Position numbers and translations under genes: made by a program
NCBI GenBank assembly: GCA_030834695.1
Contig: JAUQXK010000145.1
Location: 1 to 64,000 of the forward strand
Source: Desulfobacterales bacterium
Lineage (GTDB): Bacteria > Desulfobacterota > Desulfobacteria > Desulfobacterales > SpSt-501
Direction: 5' to 3'
DNA: 64,000 nucleotides
Part shown: positions 15,800-25,224 of the stretch, piece after piece
Layout: every line of letters starts with the position of its first letter
Position numbering within the stretch: the stretch's first letter is position 1
Notes under the pieces: generated by a model
The model's input: the letters and a program-made list of their open reading frames with translations, nothing else
What the model was told of the DNA's origin: nothing
The model's database searches: none

Positions 15800-17170
15800 A
15801 TGAGCTCACTAAAAGCATCCAACGGCGTCGTGGACGCCATATGGAAACTGCTGGCATCGATCCAACTGACGATCGTCCTGCTGATGTCGCTGGCGGGAAC
15901 GTCCATCATCGGGACCCTCATCCCACAGAACAGTGAACCGGCCGCGTATGTGGCCGCCTTCGGCGAGACCCTCTTTCGTTTCTTCTCCGTGCTGGGCCTC
16001 TTCGACATGTATCATTCCTGGTGGTTCCAGATCCTGATCGTGCTTCTGGCCGCCAACGTCGTCGTGTGTTCGGCGGACCGCCTGTCGGCCGGCCGCCGGA
16101 TCCTGTTCGTACGCCAACCCGCGTATCAGGCCGCCCGGTTCCGAAGTCTTCCGGATCGCGAGGCGTTCACCGAGGAACGCGGGCCGGAGATTCTGCGGGC
16201 CCTCTACGAGCCGTATGTTTCCAGGAAGGCGCGCGCCGTCCACATTGAGACGACCGAAGATGGGTTTCGGATGTTCGGTGAAAATGGTCGCTGGACGCGC
16301 TTCGGGGTCTATGCGGTGCATCTGAGCGTGGTGCTGTTGCTGATTGGCGGGTTGATCGGCTCCATTTTCGGATTTGACGGGTTCGTTACCATCCCGGAAG
16401 GCGATACCGTTCAGCAAATCTCGCTGCGCAGCACCGGCGAGCGGCTGCGCCTGCCGTTTGCCATCCGTTGCGACGACTTTGATGTGAGTTTTTATGAAAC
16501 CGGCGCACCCAAGGAATTCCGGTCCAGTCTGACGCTGCTCGAAAACGGCCGGCCGGTGCTTCAAAAAGAGATCATCGTCAACGACCCGCTGCGCTATCAG
16601 GGCATCAGCATCTTCCAGTCGAGTTACGGGACGGTACCGTCGCGGGAAGCGGTTTTGAGCTTCACCAGCCGTGGCACGGGCATGGTGTATACCCAAGAGA
16701 TGAAGGTCGGGCAGGAGGCGCACCTCCCCGAAAATCTGGGAACCTTTGTGCTGGCCGAGCTGCGGCATCAGACGCAGTTCAAAGGACATCCGGTCGGGGA
16801 CGCATTCATCGGGCGGCTGACGACGCCGGACGGCACCGCGCAGGAGGTGGTGCTGCCGATCCGATTCCCGACCTTCGACCGCATGCGGCGGGGGGAGGTC
16901 GTCATCGCGGTCGACCAGTTCAAGGAAAAGCATTACACCGGTCTGCAGGTAAACAAAGACCCGGGAGTGGACGTGGTCTACAGCGGTTTTATCTTGATGA
17001 TCCTGGGCTGCTATGTGACCTTTTTCCGCTCCCACCAGCAGGTATGCGTCGAGGCCGTGCGCAAAGGCTCCGGGGCGCTGGTGACGATCTATGGCACGGC
17101 CAACAAAAACAAGGCGTCCATGCAGCGTCGGATTCAGCGGCTGGCTATCGCCCTCAAAGAAATGAAATAA
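15800..17170 (+). CDS. resB: ResB/Ccs1-like cytochrome c biogenesis protein
   Basis: A 456-residue membrane protein of system II cytochrome c maturation, which with CcsA/CcsB carries heme across the membrane and attaches it to apocytochromes. Membrane helices are visible near residues 18-38 (SIQLTIVLLMSLAGTSIIGTL), 70-90, 170-190 (LSVVLLLIGGLIGSIFGF) and 395-415. A large periplasmic domain lies between the third and fourth helices, containing RYQGISIFQSSYG, a ResB hallmark. AAAGGA lies about 15 bases before ATG 15800. It is followed by ccsB across a 204-base gap holding a repeat. Proximity to the multiheme qrcA fits its role. Confidence 0.9.
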   Translation: MSSLKASNGVVDAIWKLLASIQLTIVLLMSLAGTSIIGTLIPQNSEPAAYVAAFGETLFRFFSVLGLFDMYHSWWFQILIVLLAANVVVCSADRLSAGRRILFVRQPAYQAARFRSLPDREAFTEERGPEILRALYEPYVSRKARAVHIETTEDGFRMFGENGRWTRFGVYAVHLSVVLLLIGGLIGSIFGFDGFVTIPEGDTVQQISLRSTGERLRLPFAIRCDDFDVSFYETGAPKEFRSSLTLLENGRPVLQKEIIVNDPLRYQGISIFQSSYGTVPSREAVLSFTSRGTGMVYTQEMKVGQEAHLPENLGTFVLAELRHQTQFKGHPVGDAFIGRLTTPDGTAQEVVLPIRFPTFDRMRRGEVVIAVDQFKEKHYTGLQVNKDPGVDVVYSGFILMILGCYVTFFRSHQQVCVEAVRKGSGALVTIYGTANKNKASMQRRIQRLAIALKEMK

Positions 17171-17374: not shown

Positions 17375-18220
17375 ATGACCAGTTCCGTGCTTCTTTCCGC
17401 CACGACATTTATTTACGGCATAGCCGGTTTCCTTTATTGCTTTGCGTGGGTTTTCAAGAAGCCCGGCGCCGGCCGCCTGGCCAGCTGGGTGACGCTCGGC
17501 GGCCTGGCCGGCAACACCGCCGGCTTCATTCTGCGCTGGGTGGAATCCTACCGGATGGGCTTCGGCCACGCCCCCCTGTCCAATCTTTACGAATCGCTGA
17601 TCTTTTTCGCGTGGACCATCGCCTTAATATACCTGTTCATCGAGTGGCGCTATCAGAACCGGGTCATCGGCGCGTTTTCGGCTCCCCTGGCCTTCCTGAC
17701 CATGGCCTACGCCTCGCTGTCTCCCAACATCAGCGATCGCATTCAGCCGCTCATTCCCGCCCTCAAGAGCAACTGGCTGATCGCCCACGTGATCACGTGT
17801 TTCATCGGTTACGGCGCCTTTGCGGTGGCGTTCGGCGTCAGCATCATGTACCTGCTCAAATCCCGTCGCGGCGAAGGCGAGGGCGGGCTGGTCGGCCGCT
17901 TTCCGCCGACCGCGGTGCTGGACGAGCTGACGCATCAACTGGGGATGTTCGGTTTTCTCTTCTTGTCCGCCGGCATCATTACCGGTGCGGTATGGGCCAA
18001 TTCCGCCTGGGGCCGTTACTGGGGGTGGGACCCCAAGGAAACGTGGTCGCTCATCACCTGGTTTATCTATGCCACCCTGCTGCATGCCAGGATGATGAGG
18101 GGCTGGCGCGGCCGGCGGATTGCCTGGCTGTCCATCGTCGGTTTCGGTGCCGTTCTGTTCACGTATTTCGGCGTGAACCTTTTGCCGGGGCTGCATAGCT
18201 ACCAGTCCATGGGTCAATGA
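17375..18220 (+). CDS. ccsB: CcsA/CcsB-type heme handling protein, c-type cytochrome biogenesis
   Basis: A 281-residue polytopic membrane protein, the partner of ResB in system II cytochrome c maturation. The tryptophan-rich heme-handling segment WGRYWGWDPKETWSL is clear at about residue 210, and conserved histidines flank it (HAPLSN near residue 66 and HARMMR near residue 237). About eight membrane helices can be seen. An AGGA eight bases upstream supports ATG 17375. It precedes the qrc operon by 156 bases and probably serves heme attachment to QrcA and other cytochromes. Confidence 0.93.
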   Translation: MTSSVLLSATTFIYGIAGFLYCFAWVFKKPGAGRLASWVTLGGLAGNTAGFILRWVESYRMGFGHAPLSNLYESLIFFAWTIALIYLFIEWRYQNRVIGAFSAPLAFLTMAYASLSPNISDRIQPLIPALKSNWLIAHVITCFIGYGAFAVAFGVSIMYLLKSRRGEGEGGLVGRFPPTAVLDELTHQLGMFGFLFLSAGIITGAVWANSAWGRYWGWDPKETWSLITWFIYATLLHARMMRGWRGRRIAWLSIVGFGAVLFTYFGVNLLPGLHSYQSMGQ

Positions 18221-18376: not shown

Positions 18377-19048
18377 ATGGAAGAACCGAAAGCGAACGTC
18401 ACATCGTCAGGATCTGAGCATGGCGAAAAAGAGGATGGGGCCGGCGGGCCGATCATCCTCTTTTTCATTTTGGGCCTGATCGCGAGCCTGCTCATCGGGT
18501 GGGTGGCTTTCCCGCCGCTGCTTTACTCCCAGAAGAAACAGCCCATTGATTTCAACCACGCCCTCCACAACGGGCTCGTCGACAACGGCTGTGAAAGTTG
18601 TCATTTCTTCCGCGAGGACGGCACTTACTCCGGCGTTCCGAAGCTGGCCCAGTGCATCGAGTGCCATGAAGAGCCCAACGGCGAGGATCCGGAAGAGGTC
18701 AAGTTCGTGGAGGAATACGTGAAGAATGAGCGCGAGGTCCCCTGGCTGGTGTATTCCCGACAGCCGGCCTGCGTCTTTTTCTCCCACGCCGCGCATGTAA
18801 AGAACGCCCAAATGAAATGCGAAAGCTGCCATGGACCCATCGGCGAGTCCGAGAGCCTCAAACCCTATCAGCAAAACCGGATCACGGGATACAGTCGTGA
18901 CATCTGGGGCGAGAATATCCTCGGGGTCAAGCGCCATTCTTGGGACCGCATGAAGATGGACGACTGCGCGGAATGCCATGCGGCGTCCGGCTTCAGCGGC
19001 GGCAGCGTACAGACTGAGAAAGACGGCTGCCTGGTCTGCCACAAGTGA
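18377..19048 (+). CDS. qrcA: Qrc complex multiheme cytochrome c subunit QrcA
   Basis: QrcA accepts electrons from periplasmic type I cytochrome c3 and passes them to the Qrc menaquinone reductase of sulfate reducers. The 223-residue protein has a cytoplasmic tail, one N-terminal membrane anchor (IILFFILGLIASLLIGWVAF), and a periplasmic domain with five CxxCH heme motifs: CESCH, CIECH, CESCH, CAECH and CLVCH. Six hemes are reported for the Desulfovibrio complex, so one site appears to be missing or non-canonical. The segment CVFFSHAAH supplies likely axial histidines. ATG 18377 follows GGAG by five bases; the frame also contains a GTG at 18371. It is the first gene of qrcABCD. Confidence 0.92.
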   Translation: MEEPKANVTSSGSEHGEKEDGAGGPIILFFILGLIASLLIGWVAFPPLLYSQKKQPIDFNHALHNGLVDNGCESCHFFREDGTYSGVPKLAQCIECHEEPNGEDPEEVKFVEEYVKNEREVPWLVYSRQPACVFFSHAAHVKNAQMKCESCHGPIGESESLKPYQQNRITGYSRDIWGENILGVKRHSWDRMKMDDCAECHAASGFSGGSVQTEKDGCLVCHK

Positions 19049-19133: not shown

Positions 19134-21338
19134 ATGAAAGTCGACCGCAGAAGTTTTTTGTCATTTGTCATCGGCGGTGCGGCCGGTACGGCGCTCACCC
19201 CGCTGCCCTGGAAGCTGACCGACGACCTTTCGATCTGGTCTCAGAACTGGCCCTGGACGCCGGTCCCCCCGCGAGGGGAAACGACGTATGTGGCATCCAC
19301 CTGCACCCTGTGCCCCGGCGGGTGCGGCATCAGCGTGCGCAAAGTCGACGATCGGGTCGTTAAAGTCGAAGGCCTTAAGGGGCACCCGGTCAACGACGGC
19401 GGGATCTGCCCGCTGGGGCTTGCTGGCGCCCAGCTGCTTTACAGTCCGACCCGCGTTCGTGCGCCGTTGAAGAAAGTCAACGGCAGCTGGCGCGAAATTT
19501 CATGGGATACCGCCATCCAGGAAATCGCAGACAAGCTCAAGGAACTGCGTGGAAAAGGTCAGCCGCAGAGCGTCGCCTGGGTTTCCGACACCGACCGCGG
19601 CACCGTCGCCGAACTGAGCAAGCGCTTTCTGACGGTCTATGGTTCTCCGAATTTCATCCGAACGCCGTCCATTCAGGATTCCTACGAACTGGTCCTGTAC
19701 CTGACTCAGGGACAGCGCGCCATGGCCGGCTTCGACCTGGCGAATGCAACCTACGTATTGAGCTTCGGCAGCGGGATCATCGAGGGCTGGGGGGCTCCGC
19801 CGCATCTGTTCCGCGCCAAGAGCGCCATGCAGCAGAAGGGCGGCAAGATCAGCCAATTGGAAGGGAGGCTTTCCAAAACAGCCGCCAAGGCCGACCAGTT
19901 CATCCCCCTCAAGCCCGGCACCGAGGGCGCTCTGGCGCTGGGGTTGGTTCATGTTATCCTCAAGGAAGGGCTCTACCGCAAGGACATTGTCCAGAACCAC
20001 TCGGCCGGATCGGATGCCCTCAAAAAGATCGCCGGCGACGACTTCGCGCCGGACGCCGTTTCCAAAGCCACCGGCGTGGACGCCAAGACCATCGTCGATC
20101 TGGCCAAGGCCTTTGCCGGTGCAAAAAAGCCGCTCGCCGTCTGCGGGCGGGGCAACGGGCGGCAGGAGGCCGGCAACGCACAGGAGTTTCTGGCAGTCCA
20201 TTTCCTGAACGCACTGATGGGCAGCGTCAACACGGCGGGCGGCGTCTTCGCCGTTCCAGAGCCCGACTACGTCGATTGGCCGGAGCCCGAAATGGACGCG
20301 GCCGCCTCTGCGGGCATGCAGCAGGCTCGGTTGGACGGCGCCGGGGGCAAGGACTTTCCGCTGTCGCGCTATCTGCTGAACCGCCTGCCGGAAGCGCTCG
20401 GCGCCGGGGCATCCTCGCCCGTCCAGGTGCTGTTCGTGAACCAGGCCAACCCGGTCTTCAGCCTGATGGACACGGCCAGGGTGGAAAAAAGCCTGAAGAA
20501 GATTCCGCTGATCGTCAGTTTCTCCGCCTTCATGGATGAGACGGCCGCGCTGGCCCATTACATTCTGCCGAACCACGTCTATCTGGAGCGGTTTGAGGAC
20601 GTGCCGGCCGCCCAGGGATTTCCCAAGCCTTTCATCGGGCTGGCGAAACCGGTCGTAGCCCCCCTTTTCAAAACCCGGCACACCGGCGATGCGGTGATCC
20701 AACTGGCGAAAGCGGTCGGCGGCAACGTCGCGTCGGCCTTCGGCTGGGACAGCTATGAGGCCTGCCTGAAGGAGAGTCTCGGGGACAAATGGGACGCGCT
20801 CAAGGAGGATGGCTACTGGGTCGACGCGAAATTCAGCCCGGCCGCCTTTGAAACCAAGAGCAAGAAATTCGAGTTCGCCAATGCCGACATCGCCCTGCTG
20901 CCGGCCTATGCGGCGCTCAAGGCCCCCGGCGACGACAAAACCTTCCCGCTGACGCTTATCCCCTTCGATACGCTGCGGCTCGCGAGCGGCCCCATCGGTG
21001 CGCCGCCTTTTTTGGTCAAGTCCCTGGAAGAGACCCTCCTCCAAAAGAATGACGGGCTCGTAGAGATCAACCCCGCCGATGCCCAGAAGCTCGGCCTTGC
21101 CGACGGCGCCGACGCCGTCCTGAGCACGCCGAAGGGCACCGCCCGAGTCAAAGTGGCCCTGTCGGAGGGCATCATGCCGGGCCTGGTGGCCATGGTGCGG
21201 GGGCTGGGCCACACCGCCTACGACCGGTTTTTGGCCGGCAAAGGGGTCAACATCAACAGCCTCATGAGTTCCGTGGAGGCTCCGGGGACCGGCTTCGAGG
21301 CCGCCTGGGGCGTCCGCGCCCAGTTGACGAAGGCATGA
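19134..21338 (+). CDS. qrcB: Qrc complex molybdopterin oxidoreductase-like subunit QrcB
   Basis: This 734-residue periplasmic subunit belongs to the molybdopterin oxidoreductase family, although QrcB of characterised complexes carries no molybdenum and serves as a scaffold and electron conduit. A twin-arginine signal (DRRSFLSF) opens the protein. An iron-sulfur motif follows (CTLCPGGC, then GICPLG), consistent with one [4Fe-4S] cluster. The C-terminal part has the dinucleotide-binding barrel typical of the family (residues about 600-734). A GAGGGGAAAG Shine-Dalgarno sequence supports the start. It lies 85 bases after qrcA and 48 before qrcC. Confidence 0.95.
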   Translation: MKVDRRSFLSFVIGGAAGTALTPLPWKLTDDLSIWSQNWPWTPVPPRGETTYVASTCTLCPGGCGISVRKVDDRVVKVEGLKGHPVNDGGICPLGLAGAQLLYSPTRVRAPLKKVNGSWREISWDTAIQEIADKLKELRGKGQPQSVAWVSDTDRGTVAELSKRFLTVYGSPNFIRTPSIQDSYELVLYLTQGQRAMAGFDLANATYVLSFGSGIIEGWGAPPHLFRAKSAMQQKGGKISQLEGRLSKTAAKADQFIPLKPGTEGALALGLVHVILKEGLYRKDIVQNHSAGSDALKKIAGDDFAPDAVSKATGVDAKTIVDLAKAFAGAKKPLAVCGRGNGRQEAGNAQEFLAVHFLNALMGSVNTAGGVFAVPEPDYVDWPEPEMDAAASAGMQQARLDGAGGKDFPLSRYLLNRLPEALGAGASSPVQVLFVNQANPVFSLMDTARVEKSLKKIPLIVSFSAFMDETAALAHYILPNHVYLERFEDVPAAQGFPKPFIGLAKPVVAPLFKTRHTGDAVIQLAKAVGGNVASAFGWDSYEACLKESLGDKWDALKEDGYWVDAKFSPAAFETKSKKFEFANADIALLPAYAALKAPGDDKTFPLTLIPFDTLRLASGPIGAPPFLVKSLEETLLQKNDGLVEINPADAQKLGLADGADAVLSTPKGTARVKVALSEGIMPGLVAMVRGLGHTAYDRFLAGKGVNINSLMSSVEAPGTGFEAAWGVRAQLTKA

Positions 21339-21386: not shown

Positions 21387-22172
21387 ATGGATCAGCCAAA
21401 CAACAAGCGATTCGGAATGGTCATCGATCTGGACAAATGCACGGGCTGCGGGGCCTGCATGGTGGCCTGCATGGCCGAAAACAACGTGCCGTTCCGCGAA
21501 GACGACACGGACAAACTGCTGAGCATCGCCTGGATGCGGGTCTATCGGCTCAAAAACGGAAAATCGTTCCCGCAGGCCGAGGAGTGCTTTCTGCCCCGCC
21601 CCTGCCAGCACTGTGAAGGGCACCACGGCCATTCGCCTTGTGTTTCGGTATGCCCCGCGACGGCCACGGACTACGATATGCAAACCGGCATCGTCAGCCA
21701 GGTCCCCACGCGTTGCTTCGGCTGCCGATACTGCATGGCCGCCTGCCCCTATCATGTGCGTCAGTTCAATTGGTGGGATCCGGTCTGGCCGGACGGGATG
21801 GAGCGGTCCTTGAACCCGGACGTTTCCGTGCGTATGCGCGGCATCGTCGAGAAGTGCAGCTTCTGCTACCACCGCTATCAGCGCGCCCTCGACAAGGCCT
21901 ACGCCGAGGGCCGCAGGGATCTGAAGGAGCACGAGTACCAGACCGCCTGCACCCAGGCCTGCCCGGCGGGGGCGATTACGTTCGGCGACTTGAACAACCC
22001 CGCGCACGCTGTTCACAAGCTGGCCCAGCCGGACATGGCCCATGAGGGCCAGTCCCGCAACCCCAAGGCCTTCCGGCTGCTGGAGCGCCTGGGCACCAAC
22101 ACCAAGATATACTACCTGTCCAGCAAGGAATGGGTGCGCAAGGCGGGAGACACCGCTGTTCAGAAGGCCTGA
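21387..22172 (+). CDS. qrcC: Qrc complex iron-sulfur subunit QrcC
   Basis: A 261-residue periplasmic iron-sulfur protein of the NrfC/PsrB kind that wires QrcA and QrcB to the quinone-binding subunit. Cysteine groups are visible at CTGCGACMVAC, CQHC with CVSVCP, CFGCRYCMAACP, and CSFC with CTQACPAG, enough for four clusters. There is no export signal of its own, so co-export with the Tat substrate QrcB is likely, as in related complexes. AAGGGTG lies before the ATG. It is followed by qrcD after 60 bases. Confidence 0.95.
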   Translation: MDQPNNKRFGMVIDLDKCTGCGACMVACMAENNVPFREDDTDKLLSIAWMRVYRLKNGKSFPQAEECFLPRPCQHCEGHHGHSPCVSVCPATATDYDMQTGIVSQVPTRCFGCRYCMAACPYHVRQFNWWDPVWPDGMERSLNPDVSVRMRGIVEKCSFCYHRYQRALDKAYAEGRRDLKEHEYQTACTQACPAGAITFGDLNNPAHAVHKLAQPDMAHEGQSRNPKAFRLLERLGTNTKIYYLSSKEWVRKAGDTAVQKA

Positions 22173-22232: not shown

Positions 22233-23486
22233 ATGGATTCGGCTTTGATTCCCAAAGGGGTGAAACGCTGCCCGATCGGACAGTTCGCCGTTTTCATCGC
22301 CGTTGTCGGCGCCGTCCTGCTGTGGGGTGTCGTGGCGATGTTCCTGTGCTACATCAAGGGGCTCAACCAGACCAACATGAACAATGCCTACGGCTTTGCA
22401 CTTTGGATCTGGGCGGACCTGGCCGTGATCGCCCTGGGCGGCGGGGCTTTTTTCACGGGACTCCTGCGCTACATCATCGGCAAGGACGAACTCAAGAATA
22501 TTATCAACTATGCGGTGCTGATCGGGTTCGTCTGTTACAGCTCGGCCCTGCTGATCCTGGCGATCGATGTGGGCCAGCCGCTGCGGGCCTGGTTTATCTT
22601 CTGGCACGCCAACGTGCATTCGATGCTGACCGAAGTGGCCTTCTGCCTGACCTGTTACTTCGGGGTGCTGACCATCGAGTACATCCCGCTCATCCTGGAA
22701 AACCGCCAACTCGACAAGGTGCCCTTCTGCCACCATCTCAGCCACAACATGCACGGCATCATGGCGGTGTTCGCCGCCACCGGCGCCTTCCTGTCCTTTT
22801 TCCACCAGGGGTCCCTGGGCGGGGTGACCGGCGTGTTGTTCGGGCGGCCGTTCGGTTACCGCACGGGGATCGGCATCTGGCCCTGGACCTTTTTCCTTTA
22901 CACGTGGTCTGCAGCGGCCTGCGGCCCTTGCTTCACGATTTTCATCACGCGGATCACCGAGGCAGCCACTCGCAAGAAGCTGGTGAAGGATAATGTGATC
23001 GACTTGCTCGCCAAGATTGCCGGATGGATGCTCCTGACGTACATCGTCGCCAAAATCATCGACACCTGGTATTGGGCCGCCGTGACGGCGCCGTCCATGG
23101 GGCTGACGCTGATGGATTTCTACTCCAACAACCCGGGTTCGGCCTACGGACTTTGGATCCTGATCGCGGAAGTCGGTATCTGCGGCGTGCTGCCGGCGAT
23201 CATGCTGGTATCGGGCTCGGTGCGCCGCAGCCCGGCTCTGCTTTTCATCGCCGTGACCTTGGCGGTTATCGGCGCCTGTTTGAACCGCTGGGTCATGGTG
23301 CTGCAGACCCAGGCGGTACCGGTGCTCAGCTTCGAGAGCTGGTTTACCTACTTCCCGAGCTGGCAGGAAATCGCTACGACCATTCTGCCGGTCGCCTATG
23401 GCGTCATTCTGATCGCACTGTCCTATCGCTACCTGCCGATTTTTCCCCAGGAGCAGGAGCTGAATCCGATTGAGGGAGGCAAGTAA
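22233..23486 (+). CDS. qrcD: Qrc complex NrfD-like membrane subunit QrcD
   Basis: A 417-residue NrfD/PsrC-family membrane protein with about ten helices, which binds menaquinone at the periplasmic side and completes the Qrc electron path. Visible family segments include FGLYALWIW-like FALWIWADLAVIALGGGAFF near residue 50 and the histidine-rich FCHHLSHNMHG around residue 165. A GAGGTAGG Shine-Dalgarno sequence precedes the ATG. The last base of its stop codon is the first base of the next gene's ATG (TAATG), so translation of the two is coupled. Confidence 0.94.
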   Translation: MDSALIPKGVKRCPIGQFAVFIAVVGAVLLWGVVAMFLCYIKGLNQTNMNNAYGFALWIWADLAVIALGGGAFFTGLLRYIIGKDELKNIINYAVLIGFVCYSSALLILAIDVGQPLRAWFIFWHANVHSMLTEVAFCLTCYFGVLTIEYIPLILENRQLDKVPFCHHLSHNMHGIMAVFAATGAFLSFFHQGSLGGVTGVLFGRPFGYRTGIGIWPWTFFLYTWSAAACGPCFTIFITRITEAATRKKLVKDNVIDLLAKIAGWMLLTYIVAKIIDTWYWAAVTAPSMGLTLMDFYSNNPGSAYGLWILIAEVGICGVLPAIMLVSGSVRRSPALLFIAVTLAVIGACLNRWVMVLQTQAVPVLSFESWFTYFPSWQEIATTILPVAYGVILIALSYRYLPIFPQEQELNPIEGGK

Positions 23487-23656
23487 TGTTTCCGTTCAGC
23501 TTTGAATGGGTTTGGGATATGGGGCACATGGTCTTCCACGGTGGGCTGTGGTACGCACTGTCCATTCTCGGCATGGGAGTGACCTATTGCATCATCAAGG
23601 CGGTTTACGACACCGCCAAGGGCCAGGGCGGCCATCACGGCCACGGGCAACACTAA
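23486..23656 (+). CDS. 56-residue single-helix membrane protein closing the qrc operon
   Basis: Too short for ordinary gene calling, this frame starts at an ATG sharing one base with the qrcD stop and is preceded by an ideal GGGAGGC Shine-Dalgarno sequence inside qrcD. The product starts MFPFSFEWVWDMGHMVFHGG, has one hydrophobic helix (LWYALSILGMGVTYCIIKAVY), and ends in a histidine-rich tail (GGHHGHGQH). The operon terminator lies 25 bases after its stop, so it is the last gene of the qrc transcript. A structural or assembly role in Qrc is inferred from position. I do not recognise a named family. Confidence 0.8.
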   Translation: MFPFSFEWVWDMGHMVFHGGLWYALSILGMGVTYCIIKAVYDTAKGQGGHHGHGQH

Positions 23657-23680
23657 TTCGCACAGCGCACCAACCCCAAG

Positions 23681-23720
23681 GCGCTCCTCCTGCGGACTTT
23701 AGCGGGGGAGCGCTTTATTG
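23681..23720 (+). terminator. rho-independent terminator of the qrc operon
   Basis: A 10-base-pair GC stem (GCGCTCCTCC at 23681-23690 with GGGGGAGCGC at 23704-23713, one G-T pair) is followed by TTTATTGTTT. It ends the qrc transcript after the small membrane protein gene. Confidence 0.85.
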
Positions 23721-23791: not shown

Positions 23792-25042
23792 ATGGACAAA
23801 ATCGTCATCCAAGGCGGTCGGCGGCTGGAGGGTACCGTACGCATCAGCGGATCGAAAAACGCTGCCCTGCCGATACTATTCTCGGCCCTTCTCACCGAAG
23901 GGATCAATACCTATTCGAACGTTCCCAGGCTGAGGGACATCGACAGCACCCTGCTTCTGCTTTCCCGGCTTGGCGTGCGGGTGGACGCCGGCGGAAGTTC
24001 CATCCGGATCGACGCCGGCGGGCTCGCCTGCCACGAAGCCCCATACGATCTGGTACGCAAAATGCGGGCCTCCGTGCTGGTCCTGGGGCCGCTGATCGCC
24101 CGGTTGAAGCGCGCACGGGTGTCGCTGCCCGGAGGCTGCGCGATCGGCGCACGTCCAATCAATCTGCACCTGAAAGGACTGGCCGCACTGGGGGCCGAGA
24201 TCGCACTTGAACACGGGTATGTCACGGCATCCGCCAAGCGGTTGAAGGGGGCGGAGATCTATTTTGACATTGTCACCGTCACCGGAACGGAGAACATCCT
24301 AATGGCGGCGGCCCTGGCCGAAGGCACCACGGTGCTGCGCAACGCCGCGCGCGAACCGGAGGTGGTGGCCCTGGCCGATGTTCTCAACCGCATGGGGGCG
24401 GATATCACCGGCGCCGGAACCCCGGAGATCACCATCCGCGGCGTGGACTCGCTCCGGCCGATTTCGGCTGAAATCATTCCGGACCGGATCGAAACCGGAA
24501 CCTTTCTGGTGGCAGCCGCCCTCACGGCCGGCCGTGTCACCATCACCCACTGTGAGCCGCAGCACGTGGGCGCCACTCTGGACAAACTCCGGGAAGCCGG
24601 AGCGCGGATCGAAGTCCAGGATCAGACCCTCACCATCACCGGGCCCGAGCGCATCGCCAGCGTCGACTTCAAGACCCAGCCCTATCCCGGATTTGCGACC
24701 GACATGCAGGCGCAGTTCATGGTGTTGATGAGCGTCGCCGACGGGGTCAGCGTCATCTCCGAGAGCATTTTCGAGAACCGCTTCATCCATGTGAGCGAGC
24801 TGCGGCGATTGGGGGCCGACATCCGGGTATCCGGAAACACCGCCACGGTCAGGGGCGTGCCGCGCCTCTCGGGCGCCCCGGTGATGGCGACCGACCTGCG
24901 CGCCAGCGCCTGTCTGGTACTGGCCGGTCTGGTGGCCGACAACACCACCGAGGTGCACCGCGTCTATCACCTGGACCGCGGCTACGAGTCGCTGGAGGAC
25001 AAGTTCGCCGCGTTGGGCGCGTGCATCCGTCGGGTCAAGTGA
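23792..25042 (+). CDS. murA: UDP-N-acetylglucosamine 1-carboxyvinyltransferase
   Basis: MurA transfers enolpyruvate from PEP to UDP-GlcNAc, the first committed step of peptidoglycan synthesis. The 416-residue protein matches the family length. The fosfomycin-target cysteine is present in [13 protein letters not shown] (about residue 115), so the enzyme should be of the sensitive type. Other landmarks are [25 protein letters not shown], and the C-terminal [14 protein letters not shown]. No Shine-Dalgarno sequence is seen before ATG 23792; the upstream 60 bases are a GGGTAT/ATACCC inverted word repeat with a run of nine A. Confidence 0.96.
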
Positions 25043-25163
25043 CGGCAACGCTGAAAGCCCGATTTCGGCGTTGCGCCTTGTCTCGCCGTCGCTGCGGCGT
25101 ACCTTGAGCACGACTCACTCTGATCGATTGGCGCGCCTTGAACTTGGGCTTTGAGCGTTGCCG
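25043..25163. repeat. 121-base inverted-repeat element between murA and comEC
   Basis: An 18-base left arm at 25043-25060 (starting CGGCAACGCT) pairs with 25146-25163 (ending AGCGTTGCCG) with one mismatch. The inside also carries a nested GGCAACGC/GCGTTGC pair and two copies of GCGCCTTG. The architecture resembles a small non-coding palindromic element of the kind dispersed in related genomes. No second copy is visible here. It spans the area where the comEC frame first opens. Confidence 0.55.
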
Positions 25164-25224
25164 TCCAACGGGAACATTTTTTCGCGTTTTTGACGGAAAA
25201 AGTGAAATTGGCGGGCCAAGACAG

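Follow-up and report, generated by a model that had tools for sequence, protein, structure and literature searches.

The small gene that follows qrcD in the window, by which we mean the whole 64,000-nucleotide stretch of Desulfobacterales DNA analysed here, probably encodes an overlooked, single-helix fifth subunit ("QrcE") of the Qrc menaquinone reductase QrcABCD. Qrc is electrogenic and is a main route by which electrons of hydrogen and formate enter sulfate respiration. Our reading is built on comparisons of sequence across genomes, and what speaks most strongly for a functional tie is that the small gene stays with QrcD even where it lies outside the qrc operon.

At the window locus the small gene completes a full qrcABCD operon, whose four known subunits were identified with NCBIfam equivalog models, each scoring above its cut-off (Table 1). 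The small frame translates, as read directly from the window, to MFPFSFEWVWDMGHMVFHGGLWYALSILGMGVTYCIIKAVYDTAKGQGGHHGHGQH. It overlaps the gene before it by a single base, the last A of the qrcD stop codon TAA (23484-23486) serving as the first base of the small-gene ATG (TAATG). A first-pass annotation of this DNA had reported this shared base together with an ideal Shine-Dalgarno sequence, and both are plainly there. The operon terminator that it placed after the small gene also holds up: no shuffled sequence folds as well as the hairpin, and UUAUUGUUU stands 3' of it. A simple terminator scan passed over this hairpin because its loop is longer than the 8-nt limit of the scan.

Table 1. The qrc operon and its signals in the window.
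Feature	Position	Strand	Basis or remark
qrcA, membrane-anchored multiheme cytochrome c	18377..19048	+	NF041781, 259 bits, cut-off 180
qrcB, molybdopterin-oxidoreductase-like subunit	19134..21338	+	NF041783, 523 bits, cut-off 440
qrcC, iron-sulfur subunit	21387..22172	+	NF041782, 433 bits, cut-off 400
qrcD, NrfD-like integral membrane subunit	22233..23486	+	NF041784, 678 bits, cut-off 570
Shine-Dalgarno GGGAGG	23474..23479	+	6 nt 5' of the small-gene ATG; read directly
small single-helix protein gene (provisional name qrcE)	23486..23656	+	56 aa + TAA
probable operon terminator (hairpin and U-rich 3' tail)	23678..23716	+	-27.4 kcal/mol, z -3.5

Several other features of the locus were recorded in passing. 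Just 5' of qrcA lie a CcsB-type cytochrome c biogenesis gene (17375-18220; TIGR03144, 278 bits) and a membrane-protein open reading frame (15800-17170) that is ResB-like by position only and has no NCBIfam match; in D. multivorans, too, ccsAB is reported to adjoin qrcABCD (PMC5109826). QrcC of the window carries a His-rich segment, CEGHHGHSPC, between two cysteine motifs (21600-21650).

The small frame is a real gene, and its protein is under purifying selection. We assembled 80 independent qrcD loci from named genomes (QrcD 74-96% identical), nearly all of which belong to Desulfobacterales, uncultured or cultured, or are entered under no closer name than Deltaproteobacteria, and found an intact homologous small frame 3' of qrcD in 77, far more than chance would give. 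Elsewhere, one contig ends 28 nt past the match (L081); one copy, in a metagenome-assembled genome (MAG), is frameshifted (L051); and at L043 the gene was not found in the contig, which belongs to a 1.9-Mb MAG that may be incomplete. Comparison with its closest relatives gives the frame a dN/dS of 0.02-0.10, and over 4656 pairs pN/pS is 0.27 in the frame of the small gene, against 1.2 and 1.7 when the same DNA is read in the two shifted frames. An ATG start and a Shine-Dalgarno-like motif are each present in 106 of the 108 homologues. The first-pass annotation had offered the absence of frame conservation and synonymous bias in related genomes as grounds for abandoning the gene, and the loci show the opposite on both counts. 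As a separate observation, a palindromic, repeat-like intergenic stretch (TTTTTACG / CGCCTTGAA) lies 3' of qrcD at L043:6320-6450, where the small gene is missing, and the window holds a stretch resembling it at about 25045-25170, after an open reading frame that ends at 25042.

The distribution of the small protein follows that of QrcD almost without exception. We searched 395 Desulfobacterota genomes with the single small-protein sequence and then with a 40-member family profile, and ran the NCBIfam QrcD model over the same set. The profile matches are bimodal, with 79 genomes at E-values of 1e-27 to 7e-13 and the next match at 2.6e-3, and each of the 79 positive genomes holds exactly one copy. 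Eighty genomes hold true QrcD: 77 exceed the model cut-off, and three have split or partial genes (G004, G313 and G078). All 79 carriers of the small protein hold true QrcD, the small protein is present in 79 of the 80 QrcD genomes, and the profile search found it in none of the 315 genomes without QrcD. The Fisher p-value, about 1e-83, is not corrected for phylogeny and serves only to show how large the effect is. Furthermore, four families (f2, f26, f47 and f50) hold both states, and inside each the two proteins are concordant. The sole QrcD genome without the small protein (G002) is 66% complete and has a terminator directly after qrcD. Strong DsrP matches occur in 246 of the 395 genomes, which, set against 80 genomes with QrcD, leaves at least 166 with DsrP and neither QrcD nor the small protein. 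The small protein is not a marker of sulfite or sulfate reduction in general. Chiefly through this co-occurrence, the proposal of the first-pass annotation that the gene encodes an extra subunit or an assembly factor gains strong support.

Linkage to qrcD is a less constant feature than presence in the genome. In 41 genomes from 15 families, the window locus included, the small gene is found within 14-440 nt 3' of qrcD; in 38 of the 79, spread over ten families (f16, f20, f28, f47, f48, f50, f70, f77, f78 and f93), it lies away from qrcD. The TAATG overlap with the qrcD stop is limited to close relatives. Operon membership and translational coupling, the latter put forward in the first-pass annotation as a reason to expect an added Qrc component, are thus of local reach. 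A profile made from qrcD-linked copies only recovered all 20 unlinked copies tested, with E-values of 2e-22 to 2e-5 (Z = 100,000), and found no other match in their loci. By this non-circular check, linked and unlinked copies are, in their sequences, one family. The unlinked copies are equipped with a start of their own, and almost all carry C-terminal histidine; internal stop codons flagged in some of them are ordinary frame ends and no sign of recoding. When their neighbours were compared across families, no conserved respiratory partner emerged. One of these families (f50) looks Desulfovibrio-like, because hmcC is over the cut-off in two of its three genera and because QrcD model scores are highest there. 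The unlinked copy of the Desulfovibrio-like family sits between ksgA/rsmA-like and mutS2-like genes, identified by eye (L153-L156 and L166), an interval that forms a stable address outside any respiratory operon.

We know of no report of the small protein in a Qrc preparation. No Qrc structure was present in the copy of the PDB that was searched, and literature searches under the names QrcE (electrochemistry only) and DVU0696 returned nothing relevant. Qrc is described with four subunits, as the first-pass annotation had stated, with QrcC and the quinone site on the periplasmic side of the membrane and with a QrcD of ten helices and no cofactor (PMC13059093, PMC6303296). Its composition was judged from four bands on 10% SDS-PAGE (PMC13059093), and gels of this kind would not resolve a 6-kDa peptide. 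In the same 2026 study, a qrcABCD deletion in N. vulgaris was complemented by qrcABCD alone, with QrcD Strep-tagged (PMC13059093). If N. vulgaris carries the small gene in an unlinked position, as the Desulfovibrio-like family does, the host copy would still have been present in that complementation. Published work on Qrc would in this way have missed a 6-kDa peptide encoded elsewhere in the genome.

The main rival to a fifth subunit is a dedicated assembly or insertion factor, acting for instance in QrcD insertion or QrcCD maturation and absent from the mature complex. Co-occurrence alone does not separate the two, as a factor of this kind would give the same distribution; it would also explain why only four subunits have been reported (PMC13059093) and why 38 of 79 genomes encode the small protein away from qrcD. 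We nonetheless regard it as the less likely reading, if one to be taken seriously, since one-helix proteins of this size that go with just one respiratory complex usually remain part of it, as with subunit IIa of ba3 oxidase (PMC3128077) and TorE with TorC (PMC6134056), and since the gene in 41 genomes stands directly after qrcD with a strong Shine-Dalgarno sequence of its own. Counting against a fifth subunit are the locus and the genome without a detectable copy (L043 and G002), both from genomes that may be incomplete.

It is very unlikely that the small protein serves another constant companion of Qrc, such as a cytochrome c3/hydrogenase link or a supercomplex, and not Qrc itself. A supercomplex of Qrc with cytochrome c3 and hydrogenase, cited in PMC13059093, would offer such a partner, and the unlinked copies, with no conserved respiratory neighbour, could be accommodated. 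However, the gene to which the small gene is linked in 41 genomes is qrcD itself, sulfate reducers with DsrP and without Qrc have no small protein, and the protein is a membrane helix whereas cytochrome c3 and the hydrogenases concerned are soluble.

The anatomy of the protein suggests how a fifth Qrc subunit might be placed. AlphaFold2 predicts one helix over residues 12-48, in agreement with the single membrane helix noted in the first-pass annotation, with a core pLDDT above 90, a loose N-terminus and a disordered tail. Among family members the N side of the helix is acidic, and lysine plus arginine average 0.03 there versus 2.33 on the C side; from this difference we expect a periplasmic N-terminus and a cytoplasmic tail. 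All members share F17, while H14, G19, Y/W22, A24, G29 and G31 are strongly conserved, and the glycine and alanine positions make up a small-residue face suited to packing against another helix. We picture an acidic N-terminus (...FEWVWDMGH) that would lie on the periplasmic side near QrcC and the quinone site, a helix that would span the membrane once and pack on QrcD through G19, A24, G29 and G31 and the invariant F17, and a short, basic, His-ended tail that would reach into the cytoplasm. Placed in this way, the small protein would, as other one-helix respiratory subunits do, stabilise the membrane module and the interface of QrcC, QrcD and quinone while carrying no electrons itself. The contact with QrcD, the topology and the stabilising role are all deduced. 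A bolder extension, in which the protein belongs to the energy-conserving machinery itself, strikes us as unlikely. Its cytoplasmic His tail and its helix would then build or control the mouth of the path along which QrcD brings cytoplasmic protons to the quinone site on the periplasmic side; were this true, the electrogenicity of Qrc would depend on a subunit that no mechanistic model includes.

The histidines had also been suggested to bind heme or metal, and the addition of a redox centre (heme b) or metal site to Qrc would be a surprising outcome on the present data. In favour of it, 36 of 40 diverse members keep H14 where the helix begins, and the majority have at least one histidine at the C-terminus. 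Against this, H14 is tyrosine in the other 4 of 40, and the tail holds anything from 0 to 7 histidines with no fixed spacing; this variation makes a heme or a defined metal site unlikely, and the family lacks the invariant ligand residues of a b-heme or metal-binding protein. Furthermore, the tail is predicted to be cytoplasmic, away from the periplasmic redox chain, and QrcD is described without cofactors (PMC13059093). The weakest reading, a chance open frame after qrcD, could appeal to its short length and its lack of a match in family libraries, and is already refuted by the low dN/dS, by a synonymous bias specific to the frame and by the conservation of the protein across dozens of families with and without synteny.

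Current mutagenesis and modelling studies of the Qrc mechanism take the complex to have four subunits. The small protein is tied to QrcD as tightly as anything outside the operon can be, and as a fifth subunit it would need to be taken into account when Qrc structures are determined, when the complex is produced recombinantly in other hosts and when its dealings with quinone and protons are modelled.

In its sequence the small protein is a new family, akin in kind to the one-helix accessory subunits of respiratory enzymes. The window protein exceeds the curated cut-off of no Pfam or NCBIfam family, the 40 family members give only chance-level matches to both libraries, and a PDB search found no chain that resembles it. 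A close counterpart in outward form is HmcD of the Hmc complex, which is about 50 residues long with one predicted helix and is encoded directly after the NrfD-like hmcC with a strong Shine-Dalgarno sequence. Homology to HmcD was rejected (hhalign probability 0.3%, one aligned column), and the small-protein family is found only in QrcD genomes, whereas genus g77 has hmcC and no small protein. In two loci of that genus (L177 and L178, without QrcD), a different one-helix frame, of 41 residues, comes after a second HmcC-like gene that scores just below the family cut-off; small proteins encoded after NrfD-like subunits have thus turned up more than once, in sequence families that are not related. 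Subunit IIa of ba3-type cytochrome oxidase is likewise a single helix of 4-7 kDa that often goes unannotated, and, invisible on gels, it was overlooked for years in the purified enzyme (PMC3128077), although it belongs to another enzyme class and the two share no Pfam or PDB match. TorE/NapE proteins are also small membrane proteins, and they aid one respiratory system in that they anchor a partner and promote its oligomerisation (PMC6134056); membership in that family was rejected, as 0 of the 40 members scanned match its Pfam or NCBIfam models. Alternative complex III, which is related to Qrc, has in ActG an accessory subunit with one predicted helix (PMC5928083). Its accessory subunit ActH, which differs in being a soluble periplasmic helix bundle, had no annotation beyond that of a hypothetical protein, and only mass spectrometry brought it to light (PMC5928083).
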